Assembly (NCBI GenBank): GCA_013297985.1
Contig: JAAFIY010000012.1
Location: 1 to 48,855 of the forward strand
Reading direction: 5' to 3'
Length of the DNA stretch: 48,855 nt
Source: Comamonadaceae bacterium
GTDB taxonomy: Bacteria; Pseudomonadota; Gammaproteobacteria; Burkholderiales; Burkholderiaceae_C
Shown piece after piece: positions 2 to 48,440 of this stretch. The notes beneath the pieces were generated by a model. It was not told the origin of the DNA, made no database searches, and was given only the letters and a program-made list of their open reading frames with translations. Numbering within the stretch: the stretch's first letter is position 1; every line of letters begins with the position of its first letter. Position numbers and translations under genes: made by a program.

Positions 2-1306
2 TGGCGCGGGCAGTTTGAGGTGCACGGCGTGGCCCACCAGTTTGTGGTGGCGGGTGCGCCCGAGCACTTTGACGGCGCTCGGCTGCTGGCCGACACCCGT
101 CGCATTTGCCAAGCCGCCATCGCTCTGTGGCACGGCCCGCGGCCCAAGCGCGGCAGCTTGCCGCATGCGCCGCGCTATGTGTTCATGCTCAATGCGGTAG
201 ACGATGGCTATGGTGGGTTGGAACACCGCCACAGCACCGCGCTGATTTGCGCCCGCCGTGACTTGCCCCGCCTGGGCGACCCCGCTGAGACACGCCAGAT
301 GCGCGAGGGCTATCACACCCTGCTGGGGCTGATCAGCCACGAGTACTTTCACACCTGGTGCGTCAAGCGCTTGCGCCCGGCAGAACTGGCGCAGTACGAA
401 CTGCAAGGCCCGCAGTACACCCCCTTGCTGTGGTTGTTTGAAGGCTTCACCAGCTACTTTGACGACCTGTTGCTGGTGCGCGCCGGGCTCATTGACCCCG
501 CCACTTACCTGAAGCTGCTGGGCAAGACCATCAACCAGGTGCTGCAAACGCCGGGTCGCCGAGTGCAAAGCTTGTCAGCGGCCAGCTTTGACGCCTGGAC
601 CAAGTACTACCGGCCCGACGAGCAAATGCCCAACCTCACCCAGAGCTACTACAGCGGCGGTGCGCTGGTGGCGCTGGCGCTTGATTTGTCACTGCGCCAA
701 GAAGCGGGGCACACCTTGGATGACTTCATGCGCGCCTTATGGGCTTGGCGCCCCACTACGGCCGCAGACACGACGCCAGCAGACCCGTTTGGGCAGCCCA
801 TCAGCCAATCGCAGGTGTTTGCGGTGCTGCAAGAGCTGGCGGGCCCAGCGCTTGCGCGCAAGTTGCGCACCTGGGTGCACAGCACCACTCAACAAGCGGC
901 GGACACCGCCTTGCGCGGCCTGCTCAAAGCGCATGGTGTGGCCGTGAGCGATGAGCCCGCGCCGTTGGCGCAGCGCTTGGGGCTGCGCGTGCAAGAAAGC
1001 CACGCGGTGCAGATCAAAACTGTGCTGGCGGGCAGCCCCGCCGAAGCGGCGGGTTTCTCTGCGGGTGACGAATGGTGGGCGGTAGAGCACGGCAGCCGCC
1101 GCTTTCGCATCAGCCGCCTAGAAGACCTGGCCCACGACGTCAATCTGAACCAAACCCAAAGCCTCGTAGCCTGGGTTGCACGTGACCGCCAAGTGCTGCC
1201 GCTCACGCTGCGCTTGCCTGGCCCCAAAGCCCCGGGTGCCGCGCAGGTCTGGCGCTTGAAGGCGCAAGATGATGCACAGCTAAGCGCTTGGCTCACCCGC
1301 CACTAG
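2..1306 (+). CDS. M61-family metallopeptidase with C-terminal PDZ domain (5' truncated by window)
   Basis: The reading frame is open from base 2, so the gene begins before the window and only its C-terminal part is present. A zinc-protease motif HEYFH is encoded at 338-352, followed by the KRLRP stretch and, about 30 residues on, an EGFTSYFDD segment whose Glu is the expected third zinc ligand. This arrangement is the signature of the M61 (glycyl aminopeptidase) family. The last 100 or so residues look like a PDZ domain, which in this family binds peptide ends. The N-terminal beta-rich domain of the family is missing only because of the window edge. The stop is at 1304-1306 and the next gene follows in the same direction 26 bases later, so the two may be co-transcribed. 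The family assignment is firm; substrate and physiological role are not known. Confidence 0.9.
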   Translation, partial: WRGQFEVHGVAHQFVVAGAPEHFDGARLLADTRRICQAAIALWHGPRPKRGSLPHAPRYVFMLNAVDDGYGGLEHRHSTALICARRDLPRLGDPAETRQMREGYHTLLGLISHEYFHTWCVKRLRPAELAQYELQGPQYTPLLWLFEGFTSYFDDLLLVRAGLIDPATYLKLLGKTINQVLQTPGRRVQSLSAASFDAWTKYYRPDEQMPNLTQSYYSGGALVALALDLSLRQEAGHTLDDFMRALWAWRPTTAADTTPADPFGQPISQSQVFAVLQELAGPALARKLRTWVHSTTQQAADTALRGLLKAHGVAVSDEPAPLAQRLGLRVQESHAVQIKTVLAGSPAEAAGFSAGDEWWAVEHGSRRFRISRLEDLAHDVNLNQTQSLVAWVARDRQVLPLTLRLPGPKAPGAAQVWRLKAQDDAQLSAWLTRH

Positions 1307-1332
1307 CGCGCACGCCTCACCGGAGCCGCCCC

Positions 1333-2172
1333 ATGCCTGCACCACACGCCTTGGCCGCACCCTTGGCCGCACGCAAACACTTTCGCCAACTGCATGAAAG
1401 CGGCTGCTTTGTGCTGCCCAACCCCTGGGATGCGGGCAGCGCCAAGTGGCTGCAGGGGCTGGGTTTCAAGGCCCTGGCCAGCACCAGCTCGGGCATGGCC
1501 TGGTCGCGCGGGCAGGCCGACAACCACGTCACACGCCCAGCCGTGCTGCAACACCTGGCCGACCTGGTCGAGGCCACTGATTTACCGATCAACGCCGATT
1601 TTGAAAACGGTTTCGGCCGCGATGCCGACGAAGTGGCGGTCAGTGTGCGCTTGGCCCTGGCCACCGGCGTGGCGGGCTTGTCGATTGAAGACTCCACCGG
1701 CGACGCCCAGCGCCCCTTGTTTGACTTGGCCGAGGCCGTGGAGCGTATGGCTGCCGCGCGCCGCGCCATCGACGCCGATGGCACTGGTGCGGTGTTGGTG
1801 GGCCGTGCAGAGTGTTTTTTGGTGGGCCGCCCCGACCTGGCCGAGACCATCACGCGCCTGCAAGCCTATGCCCAAGCCGGTGCCGATTGCCTGTACGCAC
1901 CCGGTCTGCGCACCCGCGAGCAAATCACCCAAGTCGTGCAAGCGCTGGCGCCCAAGCCGGTGAACGTCCTGATTGGCTGGGCCACAGACCTGACCGTGGC
2001 CGATCTTGCGGCGCTGGGCGTGCGGCGCATCAGTGTGGGTGGTGCCTTGGCGCGAGCGGCTTGGGCGGGCTTTCAGCAAGCGGCCGCCGGCCTGGCGGCG
2101 GGGCACTTTGAAGGTTTTGCGGGGGCGGCTTCGGGGGCCGACCTCAATGCCGCCATGAGCCGCAAGCCCTAG
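1333..2172 (+). CDS. Isocitrate lyase/PEP mutase family protein
   Basis: This is a 279-residue TIM-barrel enzyme of the isocitrate lyase/phosphoenolpyruvate mutase superfamily, whose members cleave or form C-C or P-C bonds in oxo-acids using Mg2+. The NPWDAGSAKWL stretch near the N-terminus, the STSSGMAWSRG segment and the metal-binding acidic motif ADFENGFG are visible. The Cys-containing KKCGH loop of true isocitrate lyase is absent, so glyoxylate-cycle activity is unlikely. Oxaloacetate decarboxylase or 2-methylisocitrate lyase-like chemistry are the usual alternatives, but sequence alone does not decide. I chose ATG 1333 because it has a GGAG sequence about seven bases upstream and lies outside the preceding gene; an in-frame upstream start at 1288 would overlap the peptidase gene. 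Confidence 0.85.
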   Translation: MPAPHALAAPLAARKHFRQLHESGCFVLPNPWDAGSAKWLQGLGFKALASTSSGMAWSRGQADNHVTRPAVLQHLADLVEATDLPINADFENGFGRDADEVAVSVRLALATGVAGLSIEDSTGDAQRPLFDLAEAVERMAAARRAIDADGTGAVLVGRAECFLVGRPDLAETITRLQAYAQAGADCLYAPGLRTREQITQVVQALAPKPVNVLIGWATDLTVADLAALGVRRISVGGALARAAWAGFQQAAAGLAAGHFEGFAGAASGADLNAAMSRKP

Positions 2173-2213: not shown

Positions 2214-2723
2214 CTAAGTAACGCGCCGGTTCTGCCAACGACTGGCCAGCGCCTGCGCGGCAGCAGACCCACGAGCTTGGCCCACGATCTGCAAGGCGCG
2301 CTGTTGGGCGGCCAGCAAATCGGCTGCGGTGCGGGCTTCTTCCAAGCGCACGCAAACCGTTTCGCCCATGGGGCCCAACACATCCGACACATCGCGGCTG
2401 GCCCGCATGCGGGCTTGGGCCAGGGTCAGGACCTCTGGCGCAGGCGCTACAACTTCTGTAGCTGCTTGGGGCAACTGCGCGGGCGCAACAGCCGCTTGGG
2501 GCAGGGGTGCCACTTCCAAAAAACCGCCTTGCGCCAGCGCGGTCAGTGCGGCGTTAGCATCACCCAGGGCAGCCCCCAGGGTGAGCAAGTCACTCAAGCG
2601 GCGCTTGCCGTCCACCATGATCAACATCGGCCGCAAGCGCGGTGACAAACCCAAGCTGCGGTCGGCCAAGGCCGCCTGCCCTTTGGCTGACTTGACCAAC
2701 ACGTCGGTGGGTTTCAGGTCCAT
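2214..2723 (-). CDS. Conserved hypothetical protein downstream of tetR
   Basis: This 169-residue protein is not one I can name. Its first 70 residues look folded, with a pattern of alternating helices (LVKSAKGQAAL, LRPMLIMVDGKRRLSDLL, ALTALAQGGFLEV) that would suit a small winged-helix-like domain; that is only a guess. A linker rich in Ala, Pro and Val follows, then a helical C-terminal part rich in Ala, Arg and Gln. There is no signal peptide and no membrane segment. The start ATG lies only nine bases after the stop of the TetR regulator gene, so the two are very likely one transcript, and control by that regulator is plausible. It is convergent with the isocitrate lyase-like gene. Function unknown. 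Confidence 0.7.
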   Translation of the reverse strand: MDLKPTDVLVKSAKGQAALADRSLGLSPRLRPMLIMVDGKRRLSDLLTLGAALGDANAALTALAQGGFLEVAPLPQAAVAPAQLPQAATEVVAPAPEVLTLAQARMRASRDVSDVLGPMGETVCVRLEEARTAADLLAAQQRALQIVGQARGSAAAQALASRWQNRRVT

Positions 2724-2732
2724 GGCTGGGGT

Positions 2733-3356
2733 TTAGGCTGGGTTGCGTTCGCACAACTGCGCGGCATGGCGCACGGCCAGCTTGAGCGCATTCAAATCAC
2801 CCTGCGCGGCCGACAGCATGCTGCCACCTTCAATCAACATCACCACCAGCGCGGCGGTGTCGCGCGCTTCGCGCAGTGGCCAGCCGTCGGCGCGCAACTG
2901 CTGCACCACCTGTTGGCAGACCTGCTCATAGGCCACGCGCACCGCCTCGGCCAAGGCGGGGGTTTGGCTGCGCTCTGCCGCAAAGGCCGCAAACAGCGCG
3001 CACAGCTCGTGCTGGGTGCGTTCAACAGCTGCCGTCAGTGCCGCGCCCATGCGTCGCACCGAATTGGCCGCACCCCCGCCGCCTGTGCGGTGCTGGGCCA
3101 TCATGTCCAAGAGGCCCTGGGTGATGTGCGCTACCACCGCCACACCAATGGCTTCTTTGCCGCCGGGAAAGTGGTGGTACATCGAGCCCTTGGGCGCCTG
3201 GGCCAGCGCCAGGATGTCGTTGATACCCACCCCGTGGTAGCCGTGTTTGCGAAACAAGCGCAGCGCGGCGCGCAAGATGCGTTCGCGCGTGTCCACCACC
3301 GCCGCGTCAGCGCTGTCGCTGCGCGGGCTTGAATCGACGGTCTCTACGGCGGGCAT
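2733..3356 (-). CDS. TetR/AcrR-family transcriptional regulator
   Basis: The protein (207 residues from the chosen start) begins its DNA-binding domain with TRERILRAALRLFRKHGYHGVGINDI, read here in two parts, and continues with the recognition helix region APKGSMYHHFPGGKEA, the classic TetR helix-turn-helix. The rest is an all-helical ligand-binding domain with no recognisable ligand specificity. I chose ATG 3356 because it gives the usual short N-terminal tail; longer in-frame starts at 3431 or 3467 would run into the palindromic operator. A divergent alpha/beta hydrolase gene begins at 3497 and the operator palindrome lies between them, so autoregulation together with repression of the hydrolase is the simplest reading. 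The inducer is unknown. Confidence 0.88.
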   Translation of the reverse strand: MPAVETVDSSPRSDSADAAVVDTRERILRAALRLFRKHGYHGVGINDILALAQAPKGSMYHHFPGGKEAIGVAVVAHITQGLLDMMAQHRTGGGGAANSVRRMGAALTAAVERTQHELCALFAAFAAERSQTPALAEAVRVAYEQVCQQVVQQLRADGWPLREARDTAALVVMLIEGGSMLSAAQGDLNALKLAVRHAAQLCERNPA

Positions 3357-3467
3357 AGCCAATGATAGGCACTCGCAGGCTGTGGCCCTGCATTTAGGGC
3401 TGTTACACCAGCAGAACCCAGGCTGACCCATAAGCGACAGCATCCGCCACCGAACGCCATCCAACAA

Positions 3468-3485
3468 CTAGACAGACCGGTCTAG
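3468..3485. promoter_or_regulatory. Putative TetR operator between tetR and the hydrolase gene
   Basis: The 18-base stretch CTAGACAGACCGGTCTAG contains a perfect 10-base palindrome AGACCGGTCT at 3474-3483. Its ACCGGT core is typical of operators used by TetR-family repressors. It ends 11 bases before the hydrolase start codon and sits about 110 bases upstream of the regulator start, where a dimer could block both promoters. Binding by the adjacent regulator is inferred from position and form. Confidence 0.65.
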
Positions 3486-7973: not shown

Positions 7974-8050
7974 GGCGATATAGCTCAGTCGGTTAGAGCG
8001 CAGCATTCATAATGCTGATGTCGGTGGTTCGAGTCCACCTATCGCCACCA
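7974..8050 (+). tRNA. tRNA-Met (anticodon CAT), CCA encoded
   Basis: The 77-base sequence folds as a cloverleaf: acceptor stem GGCGATA / TATCGCC, D-arm with AGCTCAGTCGGTTAGAGC, anticodon stem CAGCA / TGCTG around the loop TTCATAA (anticodon CAT), T-arm GGTGG-TTCGAGT-CCACC, discriminator A and an encoded CCA end. The anticodon stem and the A-T closing pairs resemble elongator tRNA-Met. A lysidine-modified tRNA-Ile2 also carries CAT, but its usual features are less well matched. The initiator is excluded because the acceptor stem is fully paired at its first position and the three G-C pairs in the anticodon stem are missing. Confidence 0.93.
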
Positions 8051-8058
8051 CTTCCCTT

Positions 8059-8093
8059 AAAAGCCCCTGGCGAACTTGCTCGGGGCTTTTTTG
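8059..8093 (+). terminator. Intrinsic terminator after the tRNA gene
   Basis: AAAAGCCCC at 8059-8067 pairs with GGGGCTTTT at 8082-8090 around a 14-base loop, and the 3' arm runs into a T-rich stretch. It starts eight bases after the tRNA CCA end. Confidence 0.85.
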
Positions 8094-8128
8094 TTTGTCG
8101 TTTGCTTGCAGCCTTGTGGACACACACC

Positions 8129-8596
8129 ATGAACCGCTGTGCCTTAGCCCTCGCCTTCAGCCTGTGCGCCGCCGCTTGGAGCGCGCCGCCTGCGCTGGCT
8201 CAAGTCACCTTGCCTGCTGGCTTTGAGCCGGTGCCCAGGGTGTTTCCGCAAACCGCCCGGCGCGGCACGCTGGTGGTAGTGGCCCCACCTGAAATCACCC
8301 TGGACGGCCGTCCTGCGCGCTTGTCTCCCGGCGTGCGCATTCGCGACCCGAAGAACCGCTTGGTCTTGTCAGGCACCTTGATCGGCCAAGAAGTGCTGGT
8401 GAACTATGTGCGCGACCCGCTGGGCCTGGTGCATGAGGTCTGGATCATCACCGAGGCCGAAGCGCGCCTGCGCCGCCCAGGCGCTGAAACCACCAACGTC
8501 ACCGCAGAGTCTGACCAAAACACCGGCCCGCGCGACGACGGCCGCACGCCCTTCAATCAATTGCCGCGCTTTGGTCAGCCACAAGCACCACGCTGA
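8129..8596 (+). CDS. Exported protein of unknown function
   Basis: This 155-residue protein starts with a clear Sec signal peptide (MNRCALALAFSLCAAAW, then cleavage near PPALAQ-VT). The mature part of about 130 residues has a beta-rich look, with RGTLVVVAPPEITLDGRPARLSPGVRIRD followed by VLSGTLIGQEVLVNYVRD and an EVWIITEAEA strand, then a low-complexity tail with TNVTAESDQNTGP and Pro/Gln residues. I do not recognise a named family. ATG 8129 is chosen because it begins the signal peptide; the frame is open upstream through the tRNA, which cannot be coding. The gene sits between the tRNA terminator and miaB. Periplasmic location is a fair inference, function is not. Confidence 0.75.
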   Translation: MNRCALALAFSLCAAAWSAPPALAQVTLPAGFEPVPRVFPQTARRGTLVVVAPPEITLDGRPARLSPGVRIRDPKNRLVLSGTLIGQEVLVNYVRDPLGLVHEVWIITEAEARLRRPGAETTNVTAESDQNTGPRDDGRTPFNQLPRFGQPQAPR

Positions 8597-8621
8597 CGTC
8601 AGCGCTGAGGGCGTTTAAGCC

Positions 8622-8676
8622 CAATCGGCCTGTAGCGCCCATTTTTAGGGCGCAATCAGCTATCTAAAAGATAGCA
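8622..8676 (+). repeat. Two-hairpin dispersed repeat, copy R1
   Basis: The best-preserved copy of the family. Hairpin 1 is GCGCCC-ATTTTT-AGGGCGC (8635-8653) and hairpin 2 is GCTATCTAAAAGATAGC, a perfect 7-base stem with a 3-base loop. They are joined by AATCA and preceded by AATCGGCC. It lies between the exported protein gene and miaB. Confidence 0.8.
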
Positions 8677-8692
8677 ACCTGCTAGTTTTTTT
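8672..8692 (+). terminator. Small hairpin with T-run at the end of repeat R1
   Basis: TAGCA-ACC-TGCTA (8672-8684) is followed by G and seven T. The stem is short, but the T-run is good and the site lies between two genes, so this could be the terminator of the exported-protein gene. Its left arm reuses the right arm of repeat R1 hairpin 2, so the two structures are mutually exclusive. Confidence 0.5.
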
Positions 8693-8718
8693 CATGCCCA
8701 TCACACACCGGTGCACCC

Positions 8719-10125
8719 ATGAACTCCACGTCTGTTGAATCCATCACCACCAGCGAGCCAGCCGCCAAAAAGGTCTATATCAAAACCTTTGGCTGCCAGA
8801 TGAATGAATACGACTCCGACAAGATGGTCGATGTGCTGCACACCGCCCAGGGCTACCAGCAAACCGATGACCCTGAGCAGGCCGATTTGATTTTGTTTAA
8901 CACCTGCTCGGTGCGCGAAAAAGCGCAAGAAAAAGTCTTTAGCGACTTGGGCCGCGTGCAGCATTTGAAAGCCAAGGGCGTGCTGATTGGCGTGGGCGGC
9001 TGCGTGGCCAGCCAAGAGGGCGCGGCCATCGTCAAGCGTGCGCCCTATGTGGATGTGGTGTTTGGCCCCCAAACCCTGCACCGCCTGCCTGAGTTGCTGG
9101 ATGCACGCCGCGCCGAGCGCCGCGCGCAGGTGGACATTTCGTTTCCTGAGATCGAGAAGTTTGACCACCTGCCCCCTGCCCGGGTGCAAGGCGCCAGCGC
9201 CTTCGTCAGCATCATGGAAGGCTGCAGCAAATACTGCAGCTACTGCGTGGTGCCCTACACCCGCGGCGAAGAGGTGTCGCGCCCGCTAGACGACGTGCTG
9301 GCCGAAGTGGCGCACCTGGCCAGCCAGGGCGTAAAGGAAGTGACGCTGCTGGGCCAAAACGTCAACGGCTGGCGCGCGCCCTTCACCAAAGCCGCTGCAC
9401 TCAATGACACCGACCCACCGCTGGGCGACTTTGCCCTGCTGCTGGAACTGGTGGCCCAGGTGCCGGGCATTGAGCGCATTCGCTACACCACCAGCCACCC
9501 CAATGAATTCACCCAGCGGCTGATTGACGCCTATGGCCGCATCCCGCAGCTGGTCAGCCATGTGCACCTGCCGGTGCAGCACGGCAGCGACCGCATCTTG
9601 ATGGCCATGAAGCGCGGCTACACCGCCCTGCAATACAAATCCACCGTGCGCAAGCTGCGTGCAGTGCGGCCTGATTTGGCGCTGGCCAGTGATTTCATCG
9701 TGGGCTTTCCCGGTGAGACCGATGCCGACTTTGACGCCCTGATGCGCCTGGTGCATGACTGCCAGTTTGACCATTCCTTCAGCTTCATCTACAGCCCGCG
9801 CCCCGGCACACCGGCGGCTAATCTGGAAGACGAAACGCCGCAAGACGTCAAGCTCAAACGCCTGCAAACCCTGCAAGCGCAGTTAGAGGCCAATATGAAG
9901 CGCTTCAGCCAAGCGCTGGTGGGCACGCGCCAGCGGGTGCTGGTGGAAGGCCACGCCCGCAAGCCCGCGCATGAGCTGATGGGCCGAACCATGTGCAACC
10001 GCATCGTCAACTTTGAAGGTCCTCAGCGGCTGGCGGGCCAGTTTGTAGACGTGGCCATCACCCAGGCCTATGCACATTCGTTGCGGGGCGATGTGGTGCT
10101 TAGCGCTGAAGCGACTGCCGCCTGA
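8719..10125 (+). CDS. miaB: tRNA-2-methylthio-N6-dimethylallyladenosine synthase
   Basis: MiaB is a radical-SAM methylthiotransferase that adds the methylthio group to isopentenyl-adenosine 37 of tRNAs reading UNN codons. The 468-residue protein has the family's three parts. The N-terminal UPF0004 domain has Cys26, Cys63 and Cys95 for the auxiliary cluster ([34 protein letters not shown]). The radical-SAM motif is CSKYCSYC (Cys169, Cys173, Cys176). A C-terminal TRAM domain runs from about residue 395. All cluster ligands are present. The N-terminal tail before [11 protein letters not shown] is about 17 residues longer than minimal, but no better in-frame start is seen. Repeat R1 and a short hairpin lie just upstream. 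Confidence 0.97.
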
Positions 10126-10138
10126 CGGGCACTTTGAA

Positions 10139-11158
10139 ATGAATCGGGCTGCAGCGCCCTGTTTAATTGCCCAAGCAGCTATATTTTTAATAGCAAGCGC
10201 AGCGTGGGCACAAGGCAGTGCAGACCCGCGCACTGGCGCGCAACGCAATGTAGATGCGCTGCAATCAGCCTTTGGCACCCACGCCGCGCAACGCCGCGCC
10301 CACCCCAAAGGCATCTGCGCCACCGGCTCGTTTGTGGGCGATGTGGCCGTGCAGCGCCTGACCCGTGCCCACGCTTTTTTTAGCGGCCAGGCCTTGCCCG
10401 CCACGGTGCGTTTTTCAGTCGGCGGTGGCGATCCACGGGCAAGCGACACCATTCCCGGCGTGCGCGGCATGGCGGTGCACATCAGCGCCACTGGCCCCAG
10501 CGCACAGCCGCAACACTGGTTGATGGCGGGCATCAACTTGCCGGTGTTCAGCGTGGCGCAGCCAGAATTTTTTGCGGGCCTCACCGCCGCCCGTGCGCAG
10601 GGGCGCGACGCACTCGCCGCCTGGGTGCAGGCCCACCCGCAAGCCGGTGCGCAGGCGCAAATCGACGCCATCGCCCGCAACGGAGTGCCCGCCAGCTACG
10701 CCACCATCCCCTACTTTGGTGTGCACACTTTTTGGCTGGTGAATGCGCAAGGCCAGCGCCAGCCGATGCGCTGGCAGTGGATGCCGCAATCGGTGCCGCC
10801 GCAAATCCAGGCCGCACCCCATCAGCCCGATTTTTTAGCCGCGCGGTTGCGCGATCGCCTGGCCCAAGGCCCAGTGCGGTTTGAGCTGTGGCTGATGCAT
10901 CCGCAAGCCAGTGATGATTTGCTCAACCCCACCATCGCCTGGCCTTGGGACCGCCCCCACACCACCGCTGGCGTGTTGACCTTGCAGGCCATCGACGACG
11001 ACCCTCGATCACCCTGCGCGCGCCTGAGCTTTAACCCCCTGGTACTGCCCGACGGCATCGAGCCCAGCGCTGATCCGGTGCTGCAATCTCGCGCGGCGGC
11101 GTATGGGGTGTCACTGATGCGGCGCACCAGTGAACATTTGGGACTGGTGCCTAGGTGA
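10139..11158 (+). CDS. Exported catalase-like haem peroxidase (SrpA-type)
   Basis: This 339-residue protein belongs to the catalase superfamily, in the short single-domain peroxidase group, with the distal His55 in RRAHPKGICATGSF, the FSVGGGDPRASDTIPGVRGMA core (read in parts) and a proximal haem Tyr322 in RAAAYGVSLMRR. It would be a periplasmic, monofunctional haem peroxidase. The N-terminus is a plausible Sec signal peptide (hydrophobic AAIFLIASAAWA, cleavage near AWA-QG). Unusually, codons 2-21, which make up nearly all of that signal, coincide with a copy of the dispersed repeat (R2). ATG 10139 is 13 bases after the miaB stop. A short loss-of-signal version is possible if translation starts later, but no good later start is seen. 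Catalytic activity is inferred from the family. Confidence 0.85.
   Translation: MNRAAAPCLIAQAAIFLIASAAWAQGSADPRTGAQRNVDALQSAFGTHAAQRRAHPKGICATGSFVGDVAVQRLTRAHAFFSGQALPATVRFSVGGGDPRASDTIPGVRGMAVHISATGPSAQPQHWLMAGINLPVFSVAQPEFFAGLTAARAQGRDALAAWVQAHPQAGAQAQIDAIARNGVPASYATIPYFGVHTFWLVNAQGQRQPMRWQWMPQSVPPQIQAAPHQPDFLAARLRDRLAQGPVRFELWLMHPQASDDLLNPTIAWPWDRPHTTAGVLTLQAIDDDPRSPCARLSFNPLVLPDGIEPSADPVLQSRAAAYGVSLMRRTSEHLGLVPR
10142..10200 (+). repeat. Two-hairpin dispersed repeat, copy R2 (inside coding sequence)
   Basis: The copy begins AATCGGGCTGCAGCGCCC and ends with hairpin 2, GCTATATTTTTAATAGC, followed by AAGCGC. Order, spacing and A/T loops match R1 and R3. It is read in frame as residues 2-21 of the catalase-like protein. 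Confidence 0.75.
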
Positions 11159-11159
11159 A

Positions 11160-11214
11160 TTGGCCGCTAGCGCAATCAAATAGGGCGCAAGCAGCTATAT
11201 CTTTTGTAGCAAAC
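11160..11214 (+). repeat. Two-hairpin dispersed repeat, copy R3
   Basis: GCGCAATCAAATAGGGCGC forms a reduced first hairpin and GCTATATCTTTTGTAGC the second (one T-G pair). They are joined by AAGCA as in R2. The copy sits exactly between the convergent stop codons of the catalase-like gene and ffh, where it could act as a two-way transcript end. Confidence 0.78.
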
Positions 11215-11227
11215 GGTGGTGGCGCTC

Positions 11228-12664
11228 TCAGCGCCCCATACCCCCCATACCCCCACCCATGCCCGGCGGCAGCATGCCTTTCATGCCGGCTAAGCCGCCC
11301 GCGCCGCCCATGCGCTTCATCATCTTCATCAGGCCGCCGCCTTTCATTTTTTTCATCATCGTTTGCATTTGCTCGAACTCATTGAGCAAACGGTTCACGT
11401 CTTGCACCTGCACACCTGCACCGGCAGCAATGCGGCGCTTGCGGGTTGCTTTGAGCAGCTCGGGGCGGCGGCGCTCTTGGGGCGTCATGCTGCAAATGAT
11501 GCCTTCCTTGCGGCGCATGTCGCGCTCCGCGCGGTCCATGTCCACCTGGCCCGCTTGCGCGCCCAGGTTGCCGGGCAGTTTGTCGACAAAACTAGACAAG
11601 CCACCCATTTGCTTCATTTGGCGCAGCTGCATCAAAAAGTCTTGCAAGTCAAAGCCTTCGCCGCTTTTGACTTTGGCGGCCAGCTTTTGCGCCTCGGCCA
11701 CATCCACCCCGGCGCTCACCTGCTCCACCAGCGCCAAGATGTCGCCCATGCCCAAGATGCGGCCTGCGTGGCGTTCGGCGTCAAAGGCTTCCAGGCCGTC
11801 AATTTTTTCGGACACGCCCGCAAACTTGATGGGCGCGCCGGTAATTTGCCGCACCGATAGCGCCGCACCGCCGCGGCTGTCGCCGTCTAGCTTGGTGAGC
11901 ACGATGCCAGTCAGCGGCAAGGCTTCTTTGAAGGCGCGGGCGGTGTTCACCGCGTCTTGGCCCTGCATGGCGTCCACCACAAACAGGGTTTCGATGGGGT
12001 TGAGCGCGCCATGCAGGGCGCGAATTTCGGCCATCAGCGCTTCATCAATCGCCAAGCGGCCCGCCGTATCGACGATCAGCACGTCAAAGTAGTGGTTGCG
12101 CGCGTAGGCCAGCGCGGCGTGGGCAATGTCTAGCGGCTTTTGGTCTGCGGTGCTGGGAAACCACTCGGCACCGGCTTGCGCGGTCACGGTTTTGAGCTGT
12201 TCGATGGCAGCCGGGCGGTAGACGTCGCCCGACACCGTCAACACCTTTTTCTTACGCTTTTGAATCAGGTGGCGCGCCAGCTTGGCGGTGGTGGTGGTTT
12301 TGCCCGCACCTTGCAGGCCCGCCATCAAGATCACGGCGGGCGGTTGGGCAGCCAGGTTCAAGTCAGCCGCCGGCAGCGGCTGGCCCTTGTCATCCACACC
12401 CGCGGCCATAGTGGCCGTCAGCTCTTTGTGCACGATGCCCACCAGCGCCTGGCCGGGGGTGAGCGAGGCCATCACATCTGCGCCCAGGGCTTGCTCTTTC
12501 ACCCGGGCGATAAAGTCGCGCACCACGGGCAGGGCCACATCGGCCTCTAACAGCGCCATGCGCACTTCTCGCAGCATGTCGGCCACGTTGCCTTCGGTGA
12601 TGCGGGCCTGGCCGCGCATCTGCTTGACGATGCGCTGCAGCTTGTCTGAAAGAGCCGATGCCAT
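11228..12664 (-). CDS. ffh: Signal recognition particle protein Ffh (SRP54)
   Basis: Ffh binds signal peptides of nascent membrane proteins together with 4.5S RNA and delivers them to FtsY. The 478-residue protein has the N-terminal helical bundle, the GTPase P-loop GLQGAGKTTTTAKLA at about residue 116, the DTAGR and TKLDGDSRGG motifs, and a Met-rich M domain ending in a long Met/Gly tail (GGLMKMMKRMGGAGG, then PPGMGGGMGGMGR). It is slightly longer than the usual 450-460 residues because of this tail. ATG 12664 is the family start; the frame stays open upstream but that part is not conserved-looking and overlaps the divergent gene. The divergent ypjD gene starts 59 bases away. Confidence 0.97.
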   Translation of the reverse strand: MASALSDKLQRIVKQMRGQARITEGNVADMLREVRMALLEADVALPVVRDFIARVKEQALGADVMASLTPGQALVGIVHKELTATMAAGVDDKGQPLPAADLNLAAQPPAVILMAGLQGAGKTTTTAKLARHLIQKRKKKVLTVSGDVYRPAAIEQLKTVTAQAGAEWFPSTADQKPLDIAHAALAYARNHYFDVLIVDTAGRLAIDEALMAEIRALHGALNPIETLFVVDAMQGQDAVNTARAFKEALPLTGIVLTKLDGDSRGGAALSVRQITGAPIKFAGVSEKIDGLEAFDAERHAGRILGMGDILALVEQVSAGVDVAEAQKLAAKVKSGEGFDLQDFLMQLRQMKQMGGLSSFVDKLPGNLGAQAGQVDMDRAERDMRRKEGIICSMTPQERRRPELLKATRKRRIAAGAGVQVQDVNRLLNEFEQMQTMMKKMKGGGLMKMMKRMGGAGGLAGMKGMLPPGMGGGMGGMGR

Positions 12665-12723
12665 GGAAAACCTATGCAAAAAAGCGCCGTTACCACGCAC
12701 GCTTGAGCCGCTAAACTGAGCCG

Positions 12724-13593
12724 ATGATTCTAGGTGGCCCCCATCCTGCAGCCCTGGTGCTGACGGGCACCGCCGCGCTCTTGTACTTGGCGGCCGCCCG
12801 GGGCTTTCGCAAGGCCCGTGCGGATCCATCGGCAGCGGCGCCCTCCGCTCAGCCCCCCGCCTCGGCCCGACAAGCTTGGCCTACCTGGCCGATTTGGGCG
12901 CTGGTGGTGGCCTGGGCCATTCATGGCGCTTTGTTGGCATTCGGCGCAGGCCTCTTGACCAACCGGCCGGTACTGGGCTTTGGCCCTGCCTTGTCATTTA
13001 CCTGCTGGCTGGCCTTGGCGGTGTGCGCGCCAGAGGTGCGCCGCTACCCCCAATTGCCCCTGGCGCCCTGGCTGGCGGTGGCTGCTGGGGTGGGCCTGGT
13101 GGTGGCGTGGGCGTTTGCAGGGAGCCCCCTGCACGCGCCAGGCTCCATGTGGTTGGCGGTGCATGGCTTGCTGGGCTTGGCCTCTTATGGGCTGTTTGCC
13201 GCAGCGGTAGTGCATGCGGTGCTGCTGCGCCGGGCCGAAAAGCAACTGCGCCAACACACCGCGGCGCCCGCCCTGGGCGTGCCACTGCTCACGTTGGAAC
13301 GACTCACCTTTCGTTTTGTGGCCGCCGGATTCTGTGTCTTGACCGCCAGCTTGGCCGTTGGTGCGGTATACGGCCAGTGGTTTGACAACAACTTGGCGCG
13401 GCTGCGGGTAGACCACAAAACCGTCTTCTCTGTGCTGGCCTGGTTGACCTTTGCTGCTCTGCTGTGGGGCCGCTGGCGCTTGGGCTGGCGGGGTGCCCGG
13501 GCCACCCGCATGCTGTTTGGTGGCGCGGTGTTGCTGTTGCTGGCCTATGTGGGCTCGCGCTTTGTGTTGGAAGTGCTGTTGCACCGCGTTTAG
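12724..13593 (+). CDS. ypjD: Cytochrome c assembly-type inner membrane protein (YpjD/HemX-like)
   Basis: The 289-residue protein has about eight predicted membrane segments and the general plan of the CcsA/CcmC/HemX-type group. These include MWLAVHGLLGLASYGLFAAA and a C-terminal KTVFSVLAWLTFAALLWGR segment with conserved His and Trp. The family is linked to haem handling or cytochrome c maturation, but the YpjD branch next to ffh has no firmly established role. The location, divergent from ffh and upstream of a PP0621-type gene and pilSR, is the usual neighbourhood in Burkholderiales and is part of the support. The start ATG at 12724 begins directly with the first hydrophobic segment. Confidence 0.88.
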   Translation: MILGGPHPAALVLTGTAALLYLAAARGFRKARADPSAAAPSAQPPASARQAWPTWPIWALVVAWAIHGALLAFGAGLLTNRPVLGFGPALSFTCWLALAVCAPEVRRYPQLPLAPWLAVAAGVGLVVAWAFAGSPLHAPGSMWLAVHGLLGLASYGLFAAAVVHAVLLRRAEKQLRQHTAAPALGVPLLTLERLTFRFVAAGFCVLTASLAVGAVYGQWFDNNLARLRVDHKTVFSVLAWLTFAALLWGRWRLGWRGARATRMLFGGAVLLLLAYVGSRFVLEVLLHRV

Positions 13594-22914: not shown

Positions 22915-23013
22915 GGCATTCATGGCGCTGGGCATGAGCCCAACGCCATGAGTCGCTTTGGCCCACTCCTCGGGACCGAAGTGCTCGTTCTCACTTGATC
23001 AAGGAGAAACATC

Positions 23014-23454
23014 ATGGCAACTGCAAAAGCACCCGCCAAAAAGGCGGCACCGGCCAAGAAGGCCGCACCAGCGAAGAAAGCGGCGCCCGCTAAGAAAGCG
23101 GCACCGGCTAAGAAGGCTGCGCCCGCGAAGAAAGCGGCACCAGCCAAGAAGGCACCTGCGAAGAAAGCAGCGCCGGCCAAGAAGGCAGCGCCCGCGAAGA
23201 AAGCGGCACCTGCGAAGAAAGCGGCCCCGGCCAAGAAGGCAGCCGCTGCGAAGAAAGCGGCACCGGCCAAGAAAGCAGCGCCTGCAAAGAAAGCGGCTGC
23301 CAAGAAAGCCCCGGCCGTGAAGAAGCCCGCAGCGAAGAAAGCAGCCAAGAAGCCTGCCGCGAAGAAAGCCGCGGCCGCGCCCGCTGCCGCTGCGGCTCAG
23401 ACCACGCTGAACCCGCAGGCGGCCTGGCCTTTCCCGACTTCGGCCAAGCCCTAG
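23014..23454 (+). CDS. Histone H1-like Lys/Ala-rich DNA-binding protein
   Basis: The 146-residue protein is built almost wholly of the hexapeptide AAPAKK (13 exact copies with a few 4-6 residue variants), giving a very basic, unfolded chain like the C-terminal tail of eukaryotic H1. Such proteins bind DNA without sequence specificity and compact the nucleoid in betaproteobacteria. The last 17 residues, [17 protein letters not shown], are different in character: uncharged, with Trp and Phe. I recall closely similar tails in related H1-like proteins, which suggests a separate function. A strong AAGGAG ribosome site lies just upstream of ATG 23014, and a terminator follows the stop. Confidence 0.93.
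23029..23330 (+). repeat. Tandem 18-base repeat encoding AAPAKK units
   Basis: About 17 units of the form GCN-GC(N)-CCN-GCN-AAG-AAA encode AAPAKK or a near variant. Alternating AAGAAA/AAGAAG and third-base changes show some drift, so the repeats are not all recent copies, but unit number is expected to vary by slippage. Confidence 0.85.
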
Positions 23455-30350: not shown

Positions 30351-30406
30351 GGGCTATTTGCTACGCTTTTAATAGCTGCTTAGGCAGGAAAATAGGCCGA
30401 TTGAGC
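30351..30406 (-). repeat. Two-hairpin dispersed repeat, copy R4
   Basis: Read on the minus strand: AATCGGCCTATTTTCCTGCC, then TAAGCA, then hairpin 2 GCTATTAAAAGCGTAGC. The first hairpin is weak. The copy lies in the 170-base gap between the divergent unknown gene (start 30286) and mpl (start 30457), so it is inside their promoter region. Confidence 0.75.
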
Positions 30407-37397: not shown

Positions 37398-38384
37398 ATG
37401 TTCAACGTGTTTTCTTTGGCCAACGGGCGGCTGTTCCAGGAAGAGATTGATTCCCTGGAAGACCTGTCTCGCTTCTCGCCAGTGTGGGTGGATTTGGAAG
37501 CCCCCACCCCGGAAGAAAAAGCCTGGGTGAAGCAGTACTACGGTCTGTCAATTCCCGATGACGCGATGGACGAAGACATCGAGGAATCGGCCCGTTTTTA
37601 TGAGCAAGACAACGGCGACTTGCACATTCGCAGTGACTTTCTGATCGCTGACGACGACGCGCCCCGCACCGTTCGGGTGGCCTTCATCCTGAACCTGCAA
37701 AACGCGGCTCTTAAAAGTCACGGGGTGCTGTTTTCGATACACGATGAAGACGTGCCCTCATTTCGGCTGTTGCGCCTGCGGGCGCGCCGCGCGCCGGGCT
37801 TGATTGAAGACTGCAAAGACGTCTTGCTCAAGCTGATGGACGCCGACGCCGAGTACTCAGCCGACACCCTCGAAGGCATCTACGACGAGCTTGAGCGGGT
37901 GAGCAAACAGGTGCTGTCGGGTGATGTGACCGATGAGCTGGCTAGCCAGGTGCTGGCTGACATTGCGCGCCAAGAAGACTTAAACGGCCGCATCCGCCGC
38001 AACGTCATGGACACCCGCCGCGCATTGAGCTTCATGATGCGTAGCCGCATGCTGGGCGCCGAGCAATTTGAAGAGGCCCGGCAGTTGCTGCGCGACATTG
38101 AATCGCTGGACAACCACACCGCCTTCTTGTTTGAGAAGATCAACTTCTTGATGGACGCCACGGTGGGTTTCATCAACATCAACCAAAACAAGATCATCAA
38201 GATCTTCTCGGTGGCCAGCGTGGCGCTGCTGCCGCCCACCTTGATTGCTAGCCTGTACGGCATGAACTTCAAGTTCATGCCCGAGTTGGATCAGCCCTGG
38301 GGCTACCCCTACGCCTTGGCGCTCATGGTGGCCAGCGCGCTAGTACCGATGTGGTACTTCCGCCGCCGGGGCTGGCTGAAGTAG
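37398..38384 (+). CDS. corA: CorA-type magnesium/cobalt transporter
   Basis: The 328-residue protein has a large N-terminal cytoplasmic domain, a long helix, and two C-terminal membrane segments with the pore signature YGMNF between them, the family hallmark. The end is positively charged (YFRRRGWLK), as expected for the cytoplasmic side. It would form a pentameric Mg2+ channel. ATG 37398 gives the usual CorA start (MFNVFSLANGRL); the frame is open upstream but overlaps the divergent MFS gene. It is convergent with mtnN and repeat R5 lies in the gap. Confidence 0.95.
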   Translation: MFNVFSLANGRLFQEEIDSLEDLSRFSPVWVDLEAPTPEEKAWVKQYYGLSIPDDAMDEDIEESARFYEQDNGDLHIRSDFLIADDDAPRTVRVAFILNLQNAALKSHGVLFSIHDEDVPSFRLLRLRARRAPGLIEDCKDVLLKLMDADAEYSADTLEGIYDELERVSKQVLSGDVTDELASQVLADIARQEDLNGRIRRNVMDTRRALSFMMRSRMLGAEQFEEARQLLRDIESLDNHTAFLFEKINFLMDATVGFININQNKIIKIFSVASVALLPPTLIASLYGMNFKFMPELDQPWGYPYALALMVASALVPMWYFRRRGWLK

Positions 38385-38408: not shown

Positions 38409-38456
38409 AGCCTCTTTCGCCCTATTTGATTGCCTTAGCAGCTACAAATGTTGTAT
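38409..38456 (+). repeat. Two-hairpin dispersed repeat, copy R5 (overlaps mtnN end)
   Basis: TCGCCCTATTTGATTGCC is the remains of hairpin 1, TTAGCA is the link, and GCTACAAATGTTGTA is hairpin 2, with a perfect TACAA / TTGTA stem. On the minus strand its last 15 bases are read as the final four codons and stop of mtnN. Confidence 0.7.
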
Positions 38457-39182
38457 CAGATGGCGAATCAAGCTCAGTGAGGCCGGGCGCGCCACCTGGG
38501 CCACAAACTGGGTGAAGTCGCCGTGCGCTGCGTCGTCGGCCCGATCTGAAATACATCGCACCATGGCCATGGGCACAGCATAGTCCGCACAGACTTGGGC
38601 CACGGCTGCACCTTCCATTTCAACCGCCAAGGCATCGGGCAGCGCAGCGCGCAAAGCGGCGCTCTCGGCGGCCGTGCTCACAAACCGGTCGCCACTGACC
38701 ACGAGGCCTTGATGCAGGCGCGCTGTAGGCGGCAGCGGGCCCGCAGCGGCACCTGCTGTTGGAGCCAGCGTGGCCCTGGCGGCCCACACCAACGCATCAC
38801 TCAAAGTGGTGTCGCACGGCCAGCGTGAAACGCCGGTGAGCGGCACCTCAAAGCGCGGAAACAGCGGAGACGCGTCCATGTCGTGTTGCAGCACCGCCGT
38901 AGCGACCACGACATCGCCCAGCCGCACACCATCGCCCACACCTCCGGCCACACCGGTCAAGACCACCGCGCGCACACCGAAATGCTCGATCAAGGTGGTT
39001 GCGGTGGTGGCTGCAGCCACTTTGCCCACCCGCGCCAGCACCGCCACCACGGCGTGGCCCCACAAGCGCCCGCAATAAAACACCCGGTTGGCCCGCGCCA
39101 CGATGCGCGCATCCACCATATCGGCCAGGACGGCGTCCAGCTCCTCCGGCAGGGCGGCCATCAAGCCCAGTGGGGCCCTCAT
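38442..39182 (-). CDS. mtnN: 5'-methylthioadenosine/S-adenosylhomocysteine nucleosidase
   Basis: MTAN (Pfs) cleaves methylthioadenosine and S-adenosylhomocysteine and so relieves inhibition of methylation and polyamine synthesis. The 246-residue protein has the N-terminal catalytic Glu segment [12 protein letters not shown], the [20 protein letters not shown] core, the substrate Glu in [12 protein letters not shown], and the catalytic Asp213 in [10 protein letters not shown]. The ATG start overlaps the stop of the upstream hybrid kinase (ATGA). The last codons IQHL and the TAG stop fall in repeat R5, so the C-terminus is probably a recent replacement. Confidence 0.93.
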
Positions 39183-45332: not shown

Positions 45333-45348
45333 GATGGGAAAGTCTCCT

Positions 45349-45405
45349 GCTACAAAATCAATAGCTGCTTAGGCAGATAAACAGGGCGTATACGCCCAAA
45401 TCGAT
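45349..45405 (-). repeat. Two-hairpin dispersed repeat, copy R6
   Basis: Read on the minus strand: GGGCGTATACGCCC (a perfect palindromic extra hairpin), TGTTTATCTGCC, TAAGCA, then GCTATTGATTTTGTAGC. It ends just before the AGGAG ribosome site of fadD, so it lies in the fadD leader. Confidence 0.78.
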
Positions 45406-45440: not shown

Positions 45441-46868
45441 CTACTCCACGGCCTTGACCATGTCTTCGACCACCTTCTTGGCGTCGCCAAACACCATCAT
45501 GGTTTTGTCCATGTAGAAGAGCTCGTTGTCCAGCCCGGCGTAACCCGCAGCCATTGAGCGTTTGTTGACGATCACCGTCTTGGCCTTGTAGGCCTCCAAG
45601 ATCGGCATGCCGTAAATGGCGCTGCCTTTGATGAGCGCGGCCGGGTTCACAACGTCATTGGCGCCCAAGATGATGGCCACGTCGGCCTGACCAAACTCTG
45701 CGTTGATGTCTTCCATCTCAAACACCTGGTCGTAAGGCACTTCAGCCTCAGCCAGCAACACGTTCATGTGGCCCGGCATGCGGCCCGCCACGGGGTGAAT
45801 GGCGTATTTCACCGTGACGCCCTTGCTGTGCAGCTTGTGGGCGAGTTCTTTTACGGCGTGCTGGGCACGCGCCACCGCCAGGCCGTAGCCCGGCACGATG
45901 ATGACCGTCTCAGCATTACCCAAGATGAATGCCGCGTCGTCTGCGCTGCCGCTCTTGGCAGCGCGCTGCACCGCGCTGCCTGCAGCAGCCGCACCCGCGT
46001 CACCCCCAAAGCCACCCAAGATGACGTTGAAAAACGAGCGGTTCATGGCCTTGCACATGATGTAGCTCAGGATCGCGCCCGAGCTGCCCACCAAGCTGCC
46101 CGCAATGATCAGCATGCTGTTATTCAGGCTAAAGCCAATGCCCGCAGCCGCCCAGCCCGAGTAGCTGTTAAGCATGCTCACCACCACCGGCATATCGGCG
46201 CCGCCAATGGGGATGATGATGAGCACGCCCAGCACAAAGCTCAAAGCCAGCATCACAAAGAACGCCGTCCAGTTCTCAGTAACGGCAAAGGCAATGCCCA
46301 GCCCTAGCGTGGCCAAGCCCAGCACCAAATTAAGAATGTGCTGGCCACTGAAAGTGACCGGAGCGCCTTGAAACAAGCGGAACTTGTACTTGCCCGACAG
46401 CTTGCCAAATGCAATCACGCTGCCGCTAAAGGTGATGGCACCAATCGCCCCGCCCAGAAACAACTCAAACTTGTTACCAAAGGGGATGGGTGTGCCCTTG
46501 GTGGTGATGCCAAAGGCCCAGGGCTCGGCCACCACCGCCACCGCGATGAACACCGCCGCCAAGCCAATCATGCTGTGCATAAAAGCCACCAGCTCGGGCA
46601 TCTTGGTCATCTCGACCCGCTGCGCCATCAGCGTGCCCGCCGTGCCGCCCACCAACAGGCCACCCAGCACATAGGCCATGCCCAAGCCCGCGCCACCGCC
46701 GCTCAACTTAACGATGAGCGCAGCCGTGGTCAGCACGGCAATGGCCATGCCCACCATGCCAAACAAGTTGCCCCGAATGGAAGTGGTGGGGTGGCTTAAA
46801 CCTTTGAGCGCCTGAATAAAACAGACGCTGGCCACCAAATACAGCAGGGTGACGATGTTGAGCGACAT
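45441..46868 (-). CDS. pntB: NAD(P) transhydrogenase, beta subunit
   Basis: PntB is the membrane and NADP(H)-binding subunit of the proton-driven transhydrogenase, which makes NADPH from NADH. The 475-residue protein has about nine membrane segments in the first 270 residues and a C-terminal NADP domain with VIIVPGYGLAVARAQHAVKEL, AIHPVAGRMPGHMNVLLAEA (parts) and the GANDVVNPAA motif. Length is typical. The start overlaps the pntAB stop by one base (TGATG), so the two are translationally coupled. It is the last gene of the pntAA-pntAB-pntB operon. Confidence 0.97.
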   Translation of the reverse strand: MSLNIVTLLYLVASVCFIQALKGLSHPTTSIRGNLFGMVGMAIAVLTTAALIVKLSGGGAGLGMAYVLGGLLVGGTAGTLMAQRVEMTKMPELVAFMHSMIGLAAVFIAVAVVAEPWAFGITTKGTPIPFGNKFELFLGGAIGAITFSGSVIAFGKLSGKYKFRLFQGAPVTFSGQHILNLVLGLATLGLGIAFAVTENWTAFFVMLALSFVLGVLIIIPIGGADMPVVVSMLNSYSGWAAAGIGFSLNNSMLIIAGSLVGSSGAILSYIMCKAMNRSFFNVILGGFGGDAGAAAAGSAVQRAAKSGSADDAAFILGNAETVIIVPGYGLAVARAQHAVKELAHKLHSKGVTVKYAIHPVAGRMPGHMNVLLAEAEVPYDQVFEMEDINAEFGQADVAIILGANDVVNPAALIKGSAIYGMPILEAYKAKTVIVNKRSMAAGYAGLDNELFYMDKTMMVFGDAKKVVEDMVKAVE

Positions 46869-47250: not shown

Positions 47251-47298
47251 ACACTACAAATTTGATAGCTGCCCAGAGCCTAAAACAGGCCGCTTCAG
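47251..47298 (-). repeat. Two-hairpin dispersed repeat, copy R7 (inside the pnt operon)
   Basis: Read on the minus strand: GCGGCCTGTTTTAGGCTC (weak hairpin 1), TGGGCA, then GCTATCAAATTTGTAG. It begins right at the pntAA stop codon and ends 53 bases before pntAB, so it can affect read-through or RNA processing between them. Confidence 0.7.
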
Positions 47299-48440
47299 GC
47301 CTTTCGGGTGACTTGTCCGCCTTGGGTAACCAAGCAGGCCGCTACGATGTCGTCGTCCATGGGCACTTGCAAGGTGCCGTCTTTGGGCAGCACCAGCTTC
47401 AAAAAGTCCAGCACGTTGCGGGCGTACAGCGCCGAGCTGTCGCAGGGCACCAGCGCCGGGATGTTGGTTTCGCCCACCAGCGTGACACCCGCCACGCGGG
47501 CGACTTGGCCTGCCACCGTCAGCGGGCAGTTGCCGCCGGGGCCGCCGTGCGGACCCACCGCACCGCGGCCTGCAGCCATGTCCACAATGACCGAGCCCGC
47601 CTTCATGCTGTGCACCATGTCAGCCGTGATCAGCGTGGGCGCCGCGCGGCCCGGAATGAGGGCAGTGGAGATCACCACATCGGCCTGCGCCACGCGCTTG
47701 GCCACTTCCAGCTGTTGGCGTGCCAGCCAACTCGGCGGCATGGGGCGGGCATAGCCACCCACGCCCACGGCGGCCTCTTTTTCTTCGGCCGTCTCATAGG
47801 GCACATCAATGAATTTGCCGCCCAAGGATTCAATTTGTTCTTTCACGCTGGGGCGCACGTCAGATGCTTCGATCACCGCGCCCAGCCGCTTGGCCGTGGC
47901 AATGGCCTGCAGCCCGGCAACGCCCACGCCCAAGATCACCACCCGAGCGGCCTTGATGGTGCCTGCGGCCGTCATCAACATAGGAAACAGCTTGGGGTAG
48001 TAGTTGGCGGCCATCAGCACCGCCTTGTAGCCTGCAATGTTGGCTTGGCTTGACAACACGTCCATGCTCTGCGCACGGGTGGTGCGCGGCGCGGCCTCGA
48101 GCGCGAAGCCGGTGGCGCCGGTGGCTGCCAGCGCGGCCAGGCCTTCGGCATTGAAGGGCTCCAACATGCCCAGCACGGCGCTGCCTGGCTTGATATGCGG
48201 CAGTTCAGCCGCTTGCGGCGCGCGCACCTTGAGCACCAAGTCGCAGCCCCAGGCGCCTGCGGCGTCGGTGATTTCAGCGCCTGCAGCGGTGTAAGCCTCG
48301 TCGGTAAAACTGGCCTGCAGCCCAGCACCCGCCTGCACCCGCAGCGTGTGGCCTTGGGCTTTGAGTTTTTTGGTGGTCTCGGGGGTAAAAGCCACCCGGG
48401 TTTCGCCCGCTAGAGTCTCAGCAGGCACGCCGATCAGCAT
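47295..48440 (-). CDS. pntAA: NAD(P) transhydrogenase, alpha subunit NAD-binding part
   Basis: The 381-residue protein is the soluble NAD(H)-binding domain of the transhydrogenase, related to alanine dehydrogenase. Visible are the N-terminal GVPAETLAGETRVAFTPE, the Rossmann motif VVILGVGVAGLQAIATAKRLGA and the mobile-loop region near GYARPMPPSWLARQQ. The ATG at 48440 follows a GGGAG sequence about six bases upstream. It is first in the pntAA-pntAB-pntB operon. A divergent CAP-domain gene begins 84 bases upstream. Confidence 0.97.
   Translation of the reverse strand: MLIGVPAETLAGETRVAFTPETTKKLKAQGHTLRVQAGAGLQASFTDEAYTAAGAEITDAAGAWGCDLVLKVRAPQAAELPHIKPGSAVLGMLEPFNAEGLAALAATGATGFALEAAPRTTRAQSMDVLSSQANIAGYKAVLMAANYYPKLFPMLMTAAGTIKAARVVILGVGVAGLQAIATAKRLGAVIEASDVRPSVKEQIESLGGKFIDVPYETAEEKEAAVGVGGYARPMPPSWLARQQLEVAKRVAQADVVISTALIPGRAAPTLITADMVHSMKAGSVIVDMAAGRGAVGPHGGPGGNCPLTVAGQVARVAGVTLVGETNIPALVPCDSSALYARNVLDFLKLVLPKDGTLQVPMDDDIVAACLVTQGGQVTRKA

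Follow-up and report, generated by a model that had tools for sequence, protein, structure and literature searches.

A dispersed palindromic repeat as the probable source of the signal-peptide core of a catalase-family protein in a Comamonadaceae bacterium

Precedents exist for in-frame peptides and signals that derive from repeats, namely the Rickettsia palindromic elements (RPEs) and the Yersinia protein YPO1552. RPEs are palindromic elements found in frame, and the available parts of the reports extend coding palindromes to Wolbachia and an archaeon (PMC10969869, PMC2229807). The Yersinia work, in its available portion, presents one strong case along with the weaker cases YPO2495 and YE2643, the latter with another repeat (PMC2759123). 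The subject of this study is a short dispersed palindromic repeat in the genome of a Comamonadaceae bacterium, in particular its copy R2, which lies at the start of a gene for a catalase-family, SrpA-like protein. The window, meaning the whole 48,855-nt stretch of DNA that was analysed, corresponds to contig C24 in a draft genome of 3.76 Mb, which is the sole member of its genus among the genomes compared. We think it likely that the repeat, taken up repeatedly as the core of Sec-type signal peptides, supplied that of the catalase, most likely replacing an older signal. New signal peptides are hard to trace to their source because they diverge fast. In the present case the DNA of origin can still be recognised in several unrelated proteins, in either orientation, which would open the birth of an export signal to fusion tests; repeat DNA could supply a ready-made protein-targeting signal. 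The case also adds a high-copy coding palindromic repeat with a clear frame preference, from an apparently free-living Burkholderiales lineage.

The window contains eight copies of the repeat, plus one weak match that overlaps a copy, as found with an iterated nhmmer profile (Table 1). R2 had the top score among 150 genome copies. The first-pass annotation had described R2 as a dispersed repeat at 10142-10200, which was right within a few bases, and had it coincide with codons 2-21 of the catalase-like protein; the overlap stands, with the profile core itself covering residues 2-19. Read in frame from the ATG at 10139, this core gives NRAAAPCLIAQAAIFLIA. There is no in-frame ATG, GTG or TTG between 10139 and residue 66, so translation from such a start passes through the repeat. 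The best 10-residue hydropathy window of the copy, 2.58, is the highest of the 24 copies that lie in called open reading frames (ORFs) and fourth among the 43 called genes in the window; the pattern of N-region, core and A-x-A fits a signal peptide by eye only. The same annotation had proposed the repeat as a hydrophobic signal core, which is plausible, as copies in either orientation appear to play this part in other, unrelated proteins. It had also proposed an AWA cleavage site just past the repeat. That motif is present, in SAAWA, and appears to come from the gene itself and not from the repeat. Export of the catalase by the Sec system, and cleavage at this putative site, are predicted from the translation.

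Searching the same genome for other in-frame N-terminal copies yielded two further proteins, which brings the signal-like N-terminal cases to 3 among 172 copies examined (154 plus 18 new). One is a ComEA-like HHH_3 protein (E 1.7e-10; locus L043, ORF 1272-1598, minus strand) that starts with MKNRPLAPCWIAQAAIFLIANQACVAVAQ. The repeat profile matched here with E 2.3e-14 (this and the following profile values refer to the given locus alone). ComEA models match the protein only below their cut-offs. Its ATG lies 7 nt past the stop of a preceding epimerase-like gene (by eye), and it shares its orientation, frame and AIFLIA core with the catalase. The other is a polysaccharide deacetylase (PF01522, Polysacc_deac_1, E 8.6e-19; L210, 2-694, minus strand), in which the antisense repeat forms MGRFATKLIAACALFLGATAVFASS (profile E 5.1e-14); this gene leaves its contig after 231 codons. 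Its copy, with a hydropathy of 2.62, ties for first of the 20 open in the antisense frame. ComEA and polysaccharide deacetylases are normally exported. In G030, a genome of another genus, a 116-aa protein starts with MTHFTLKSSIFAILFIAAQAINAPATAQ, again from the antisense strand (L226, profile E 2.3e-8), and matches neither Pfam nor NCBIfam within the limits applied. A deacetylase of G030 that starts with MKCLKFAIFFIAIQAVNTSATAQ, also antisense, is a weaker case (L332, profile E 5.8e-5). Judged by the translations, a plausible export signal takes its beginning and its hydrophobic core from the repeat in several unrelated proteins, in both orientations.

Several candidates were set aside. The apparent N-terminal copy in L178 was rejected, as a better signal-like stretch and a possible later start lie downstream of the repeat (by eye). 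Six loci with open frames over the repeat and no Pfam match (L046, L149, L295, L220, L068, L049) were not counted, nor was L219, a glutathione synthetase whose domain starts past the repeat. L228, the only locus that the in-frame DNA pattern returned in the named genomes, has its hairpin between two ORFs.

The catalase relatives were compared at their N-termini, and the repeat profile had no match there in any of 29 foreign catalase-type loci or in the paralogue from the same genome. The SrpA-like relatives carry ordinary, unrelated signal-like N-termini (by eye). This holds for the second SrpA-like catalase of the genome (G000 C101:26496-27443, L040; 41%), which has an ordinary N-terminus without the repeat. 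A search for named relatives of the catalase gave 94 stretches that fit a peptide pattern, and none was confirmed. It had been suggested at first pass that the repeat either changed the location of a protein in one step or replaced an older signal. The former is not supported and the latter appears likelier, because the catalase relatives already look exported; the repeat most likely replaced an older catalase signal. The situation resembles the YPAL/RU-2 fusion YPO1552, for which similar proteins elsewhere have unrelated signals (Delihas 2007; PMC2759123). YPAL/RU-2 is, by the available description, a different element of ~168 bp (PMC2759123), and unlike the Yersinia work the present case comprises three proteins within a single genome, uses either orientation of the repeat and extends to one gene across many genera.

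The surroundings of miaB bear on the history of the catalase gene. miaB was found in 378/399 genomes, and the 29 best-scoring foreign miaB loci were compared. In 3/29 (L085, L088, L091) miaB and ffh are convergent, with a gap of tens of bases or fewer and no catalase gene between them. In L097 ~0.75 kb separates the two genes, and the remaining 25 loci show no close ffh within the ~1.5 kb available. Since L085, L088 and L091 lack a catalase gene between miaB and ffh, that gene is most simply a newcomer here. It might have arrived as a unit, by recombination between the direct copies at 10143 and 11159, with the fusion as a by-product. The copies at both ends of the gene do share their orientation, and the catalase-free miaB-ffh pairs agree with such an arrival. 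At such a density of the repeat, however, chance alone will place copies on both sides of many genes, and no donor or fresh junction was found. We regard an arrival of this kind as unlikely, if less so than the other alternatives considered below, and it bears on the history of the signal, not on its working.

The repeat is a real dispersed family and not a chance similarity. A genome-wide profile search began with 2,719 first-look candidates, and 150/150 of those scored matched the repeat, so that the count is at least 150. A BLAST-type search, with 40 of 189 candidates scored, gave 41 places at E<=1e-3. Extrapolating from eight copies in 48.9 kb, several hundred would be expected genome-wide if they are evenly spread. 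The consensus is ATCGGGCTGTAGCGCCCTATTTAATTGCCCAAGCAGCTATAAATTTTGTAGCA, 53 nt with 43% GC (23/53); the element as a whole is palindromic and measures ~53-65 nt, with a 53-nt core that holds short hairpins. A long exact repeat pattern was present in 3/200 family genomes, the present one, G030 (26 exact matches) and G137. The surroundings of 154 copies (profile E<1e-5) were examined, with genes called by a codon-usage score. Because most of these copies were drawn from best-scoring lists, their fractions are not unbiased genome figures. Most sit directly behind stop codons: a same-strand gene precedes the copy in 105/146 cases with a neighbor on the 5' side, and the median distance is 25 nt past its stop. 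R2, which begins 17 nt past the miaB stop, fits this pattern. BLAST similarity between R2 and some other copies reaches back to ~10134, for example in the copy at L058:3187, TCTGAAATGAATCGG.

Twenty-four of the 154 copies lie within called ORFs (overlap of at least 40 nt). Twelve of these, that of the catalase included, are read in sense frame 1 (typically APYLSAQAATKNVA), ten in antisense frame 0 (typically VATKKVAASAIKQGAAA) and two in other frames. Both preferred frames are Ala-rich, with the forms ...APYLIAQAAxxxVA and ...ATxxIAAxAIKxGATA, respectively. The concentration of 22/24 copies in two frames has a binomial P of about 3e-9. Among the other 130 copies, sense frame 2 was open in 79, antisense frame 1 in 47, sense frame 1 in 43 and antisense frame 0 in 20. 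As the other frames are open more often, the frame choice is not explained by availability. Short genes such as the ComEA-like ORF escaped the gene calling, which also set the start of L210 downstream; the copies of both are therefore counted among these 130 "outside" copies. Hosts of in-frame copies include FGAM synthase (PurL), fused isobutyryl-CoA mutase (IcmF), RlmD, isocitrate dehydrogenase, a NuoE/NuoF-like fusion, leucyl-tRNA synthetase (LeuS), urate oxidase and topoisomerase. RlmD and PurL were aligned with their relatives, and both repeat sites are length-variable. RlmD of this genome has 17 residues at the repeat columns, compared with 5 (nine), 9 (nine) or 11 (one) in 19 relatives; PurL has 18, compared with 9 or 10 in 18 relatives. 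The extra residues are visible in RlmD and PurL against the sequences of the Protein Data Bank (PDB). Against the sequences of solved LeuS and IcmF structures no clean gap was seen at the repeat, and among the PDB matches listed for L186 none aligned over its repeat. The first-pass view that a non-coding repeat was recruited is supported as to recruitment and is incomplete as to "non-coding", since the repeat sits in frame inside many proteins.

The repeat behaves like the RPEs. Like them it is a dispersed palindrome (150/150 scored) that lies between genes and also in frame within unrelated conserved proteins, to which it adds a tolerated peptide (PMC10969869, PMC2229807). It does not have the RPE length. 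RPEs, as characterized in the available text, are rickettsial elements of ~105-150 bp with a long stem-loop and terminal inverted repeats, in contrast to ~53-65 nt and short hairpins here. Within a single genome the present repeat also outnumbers the 44 insertions given for the R. conorii RPE. Unlike RPEs as described there, it is read on either strand, with a different frame preferred on each. As to the host, a 3.76-Mb genome in a family sampled with 141 genera, and one named DNA match in a Burkholderiales metagenome-assembled genome, point to a probable place in Burkholderiales. Nearer in taxonomy is the BRE, a dispersed repeat of Betaproteobacteria, Comamonadaceae included, that is sometimes found in coding sequence (Hot et al. 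2011; PMC3110155). The BRE is set apart by its description, being 75-91 bp long, ~69% GC and often tandem in the portion available, versus 53 nt and 43% GC (PMC3110155).

We propose the following course of events. A repeat that would have been mobile commonly settles behind stop codons, and two of its frames are tolerated inside proteins. With an ATG just upstream, the AT-rich hairpin, read as Ile, Phe and Leu, would make the encoded peptide a Sec-type signal core. R2, behind the miaB stop, would then have become fused to the mature part of a catalase-family gene and supplied the hydrophobic core, most likely in place of the older signal of the gene. The same element would have taken the same role in other proteins, presumably in independent events.

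The deacetylases were followed across genera. Matches were found in 86/141 genomes, each from a different genus, and the best 60 loci, the own one included, were used. The 17-nt hairpin of the repeat, GCTAY-N7-RTAGC, occurs within the 135 nt before the domain in 18/60 loci. All 18 hairpins are in frame and are read A-[IMT]-x-x-[IV]-A. Three synonymous null models gave fewer: a mean of 0.5 and a maximum of 3 in 200 runs with gene-body codon usage (56 loci), 2.0 and 7 in 500 runs with pooled N-terminal usage (60 loci), and 3.7 and 12 in 500 runs when codons were shuffled within the region (60 loci). The 33 nt past the hairpin codons agree with the antisense consensus at 48.1% of positions (47.2% if the own copy is left out), compared with 29.5%, and at most 36.2% in 2000, for codon-shuffled flanks. 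Sixteen of the 18 genomes that keep the hairpin have no long exact repeat pattern. On a 56-row tree the hairpin is scattered, with 15 changes versus a shuffled mean of 15.3, and at least 8 are forced by the starred branches; the bootstrap of this tree had not settled, and 4/60 loci had been omitted from it after failing the motif search. The pattern fits repeated gain as well as an ancient presence followed by repeated decay.

Hairpins of the same form were seen in other places. A lytic-transglycosylase-type protein (PF13406; L033:3660-3676) has one within its signal-like N-terminus, as does a protein of unassigned family (L085:1099-1115); both proteins come from other genera. In 5/19 foreign RlmD loci (L230, L232, L233, L234, L235) a 17-nt hairpin is in frame in the variable loop (e.g. 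AATSFVARNLF), where the present genome carries the repeat. PurL of two genera has a hairpin at a common position (L252:4672-4688 and L253:428-444), which differs in site and frame from the insertion in our PurL.

A number of observations weigh against recruitment of the repeat as an export signal. The strict hairpin pattern was fixed only once a looser version had proved to work; that version, N4-9, brings in one more among 56 loci. The whole-repeat profile, applied to 19 foreign deacetylase loci, was strong at the N-terminus only in L276 (E 3.5e-6), with weaker matches in L275 (3.3e-4) and in L284, L287, L285 and L270 (0.03-0.45), and the scatter on the tree does not support a single old recruitment. 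In L031, an SrpA-like locus of another genus, a hairpin of the same form lies ~70 nt upstream of the likely start (2599-2615), outside the signal. At 46% identity, the best match to the catalase in 200 genomes is too distant to show what its earlier N-terminus looked like. ATG is not a standard part of the repeat, because it is not one of the 12 commonest triplets at that position among 153 copies. Copies outside called ORFs are nearly as hydrophobic as that of the catalase (2.52, 2.47, 2.40), the first of these being the next highest of the 43 other copies open in its frame, and the ComEA-like copy, at 2.11, is only sixth of the 43. For these two reasons hydropathy is no proof of selection; the N-terminal copies lie at the hydrophobic end of the coding range of the family, and inside that range. 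The same values, and the fact that any frame rich in Ala, Ile and Leu resembles a signal core, would suit a mere accident of likeness in the catalase alone. We find this scarcely credible, the least so of the alternatives, given that the same element is the N-terminal core of two more proteins of normally exported kinds in this genome and of two in G030.

The Shine-Dalgarno match before 10139 is weak (by eye), and in-frame ATGs at 10070 and 10091 overlap the 3' end of miaB. The repeat might then be only a 3' element of miaB, with the catalase starting at one of these codons or its gene decaying. This is very improbable in our judgment: starts at 10070 or 10091 would give a longer N-region and would still be read through the repeat-coded core, and decay is at odds with a positive coding score, a frame intact for 339 codons and a domain fit to PF00199 over residues 50-332.

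The hairpin might instead be kept for a role in DNA or RNA, as 5' mRNA structure, terminator or protein site, with a peptide that merely tolerates it. Retention of the palindrome above synonymous expectation in the deacetylases and the position of many copies behind same-strand genes would fit, as does the copy at 8605-8685, which folds far better than shuffles (z -3.69, 0/200 as good). That unusual fold was seen in 1/3 copies, the catalase copy (10126-10205, z 0.27) being no better than shuffles and the one at 11156-11220 (z -0.70) hardly beyond them. A consensus RNA fold of 48 copies gave 3 pairs, none changed on both sides. The named 5-bp hairpin stem had 9 two-sided cells, with no covariation beyond shuffles (90/500 as high). 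The repeat has no counterpart in Rfam: a search of the window at gathering scores yielded only a tRNA, and so did one of region 8000-13000 with E up to 1. Moreover, the sequence past the deacetylase hairpin also fits the antisense repeat, and the hairpin part encodes a charged residue in 17/21 internal copies in the two frames, compared with none in the catalase and ComEA-like proteins and one lysine in L210. We consider such a role in DNA or RNA improbable. Beyond recruitment in single proteins, the element could be a dispersed, pre-adapted signal-peptide cassette, which near a start codon would give export in one step and would have been a recurrent source of export signals across this bacterial family. 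One frame per strand would supply a hydrophobic core, the antisense one adding an A-T-A cleavage site, and some signals would keep palindromic DNA in genomes that otherwise now hold few copies of the repeat or none. We put this wider idea forward tentatively, at somewhat less than even odds.

REP elements, which are associated with RAYT transposases, resemble the present repeat in being short palindromes of high copy number close to the ends of genes. No RAYT gene with the repeat on its flanks was found here. The genome has a single RAYT-like gene (L227, C111:36561-36887; one PF01797 match), and the 3.3 kb around it hold no significant copy of the repeat (best profile match E 0.8). RAYT was rejected as its mobiliser, as there is one such gene, without repeats around it. 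In the literature covered, from which subscription journals are mostly missing, no such repeat or case besides the BRE is reported for this bacterial group. The Rhodoferax ferrireducens genome paper, in its available part, mentions CRISPR repeats only (PMC2755013).

Table 1. Copies of the repeat and neighboring features in the window.
Feature	Position	Strand	Basis
Repeat copy in ORF 2214-2723 (-), sense frame 1, AAVAPAQLPQAATEVVA	2446..2493	-	nhmmer E 8.8e-8
Repeat copy behind stop of ORF 8012-8596	8624..8676	+	nhmmer E 7e-12
miaB	8719..10125	+	TIGR01574 E 1.9e-168; stop 13 nt before ATG 10139
5' flank aligning to some other copies, contains ATG 10139	10134..10142	+	BLAST, aligned copies
Catalase-family, SrpA-like protein, 339 aa, signal core probably from repeat	10139..11158	+	PF00199 E 7e-25
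Repeat copy R2, profile core	10143..10195	+	residues 2-19, sense frame 1; nhmmer E 2.7e-17
SAAWA, proposed signal-peptidase I site A-W-A/Q (cut before Q)	10196..10210	+	translation; cleavage predicted
Second repeat copy, directly behind catalase stop codon	11159..11211	+	nhmmer E 1.7e-9
ffh-like gene, convergent	11228..12829	-	named by eye; tblastn 83-84% to L085, L088, L091
Repeat copy, divergent 30286/30433 intergenic region	30359..30406	-	profile
Repeat copy between convergent 37398-38384 (+) and 38442-39182 (-), overlaps end of the latter	38409..38455	+	profile
Repeat copy behind stop of 45441-46868 (-)	45348..45397	-	profile
Repeat copy at stop of 47295-48440 (-)	47254..47304	-	profile

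Two further features were noted by eye. In L097 the miaB-ffh interval, the one in which the catalase gene is inserted here, is occupied at ~2888-3485 by two small genes resembling a ParD/RelE-type toxin-antitoxin pair. In the window itself, an 18-bp tandem array at 22992-23378 lies in coding sequence and encodes a Lys/Ala-rich stretch of the PAKKA type, similar to a histone H1-like tail.
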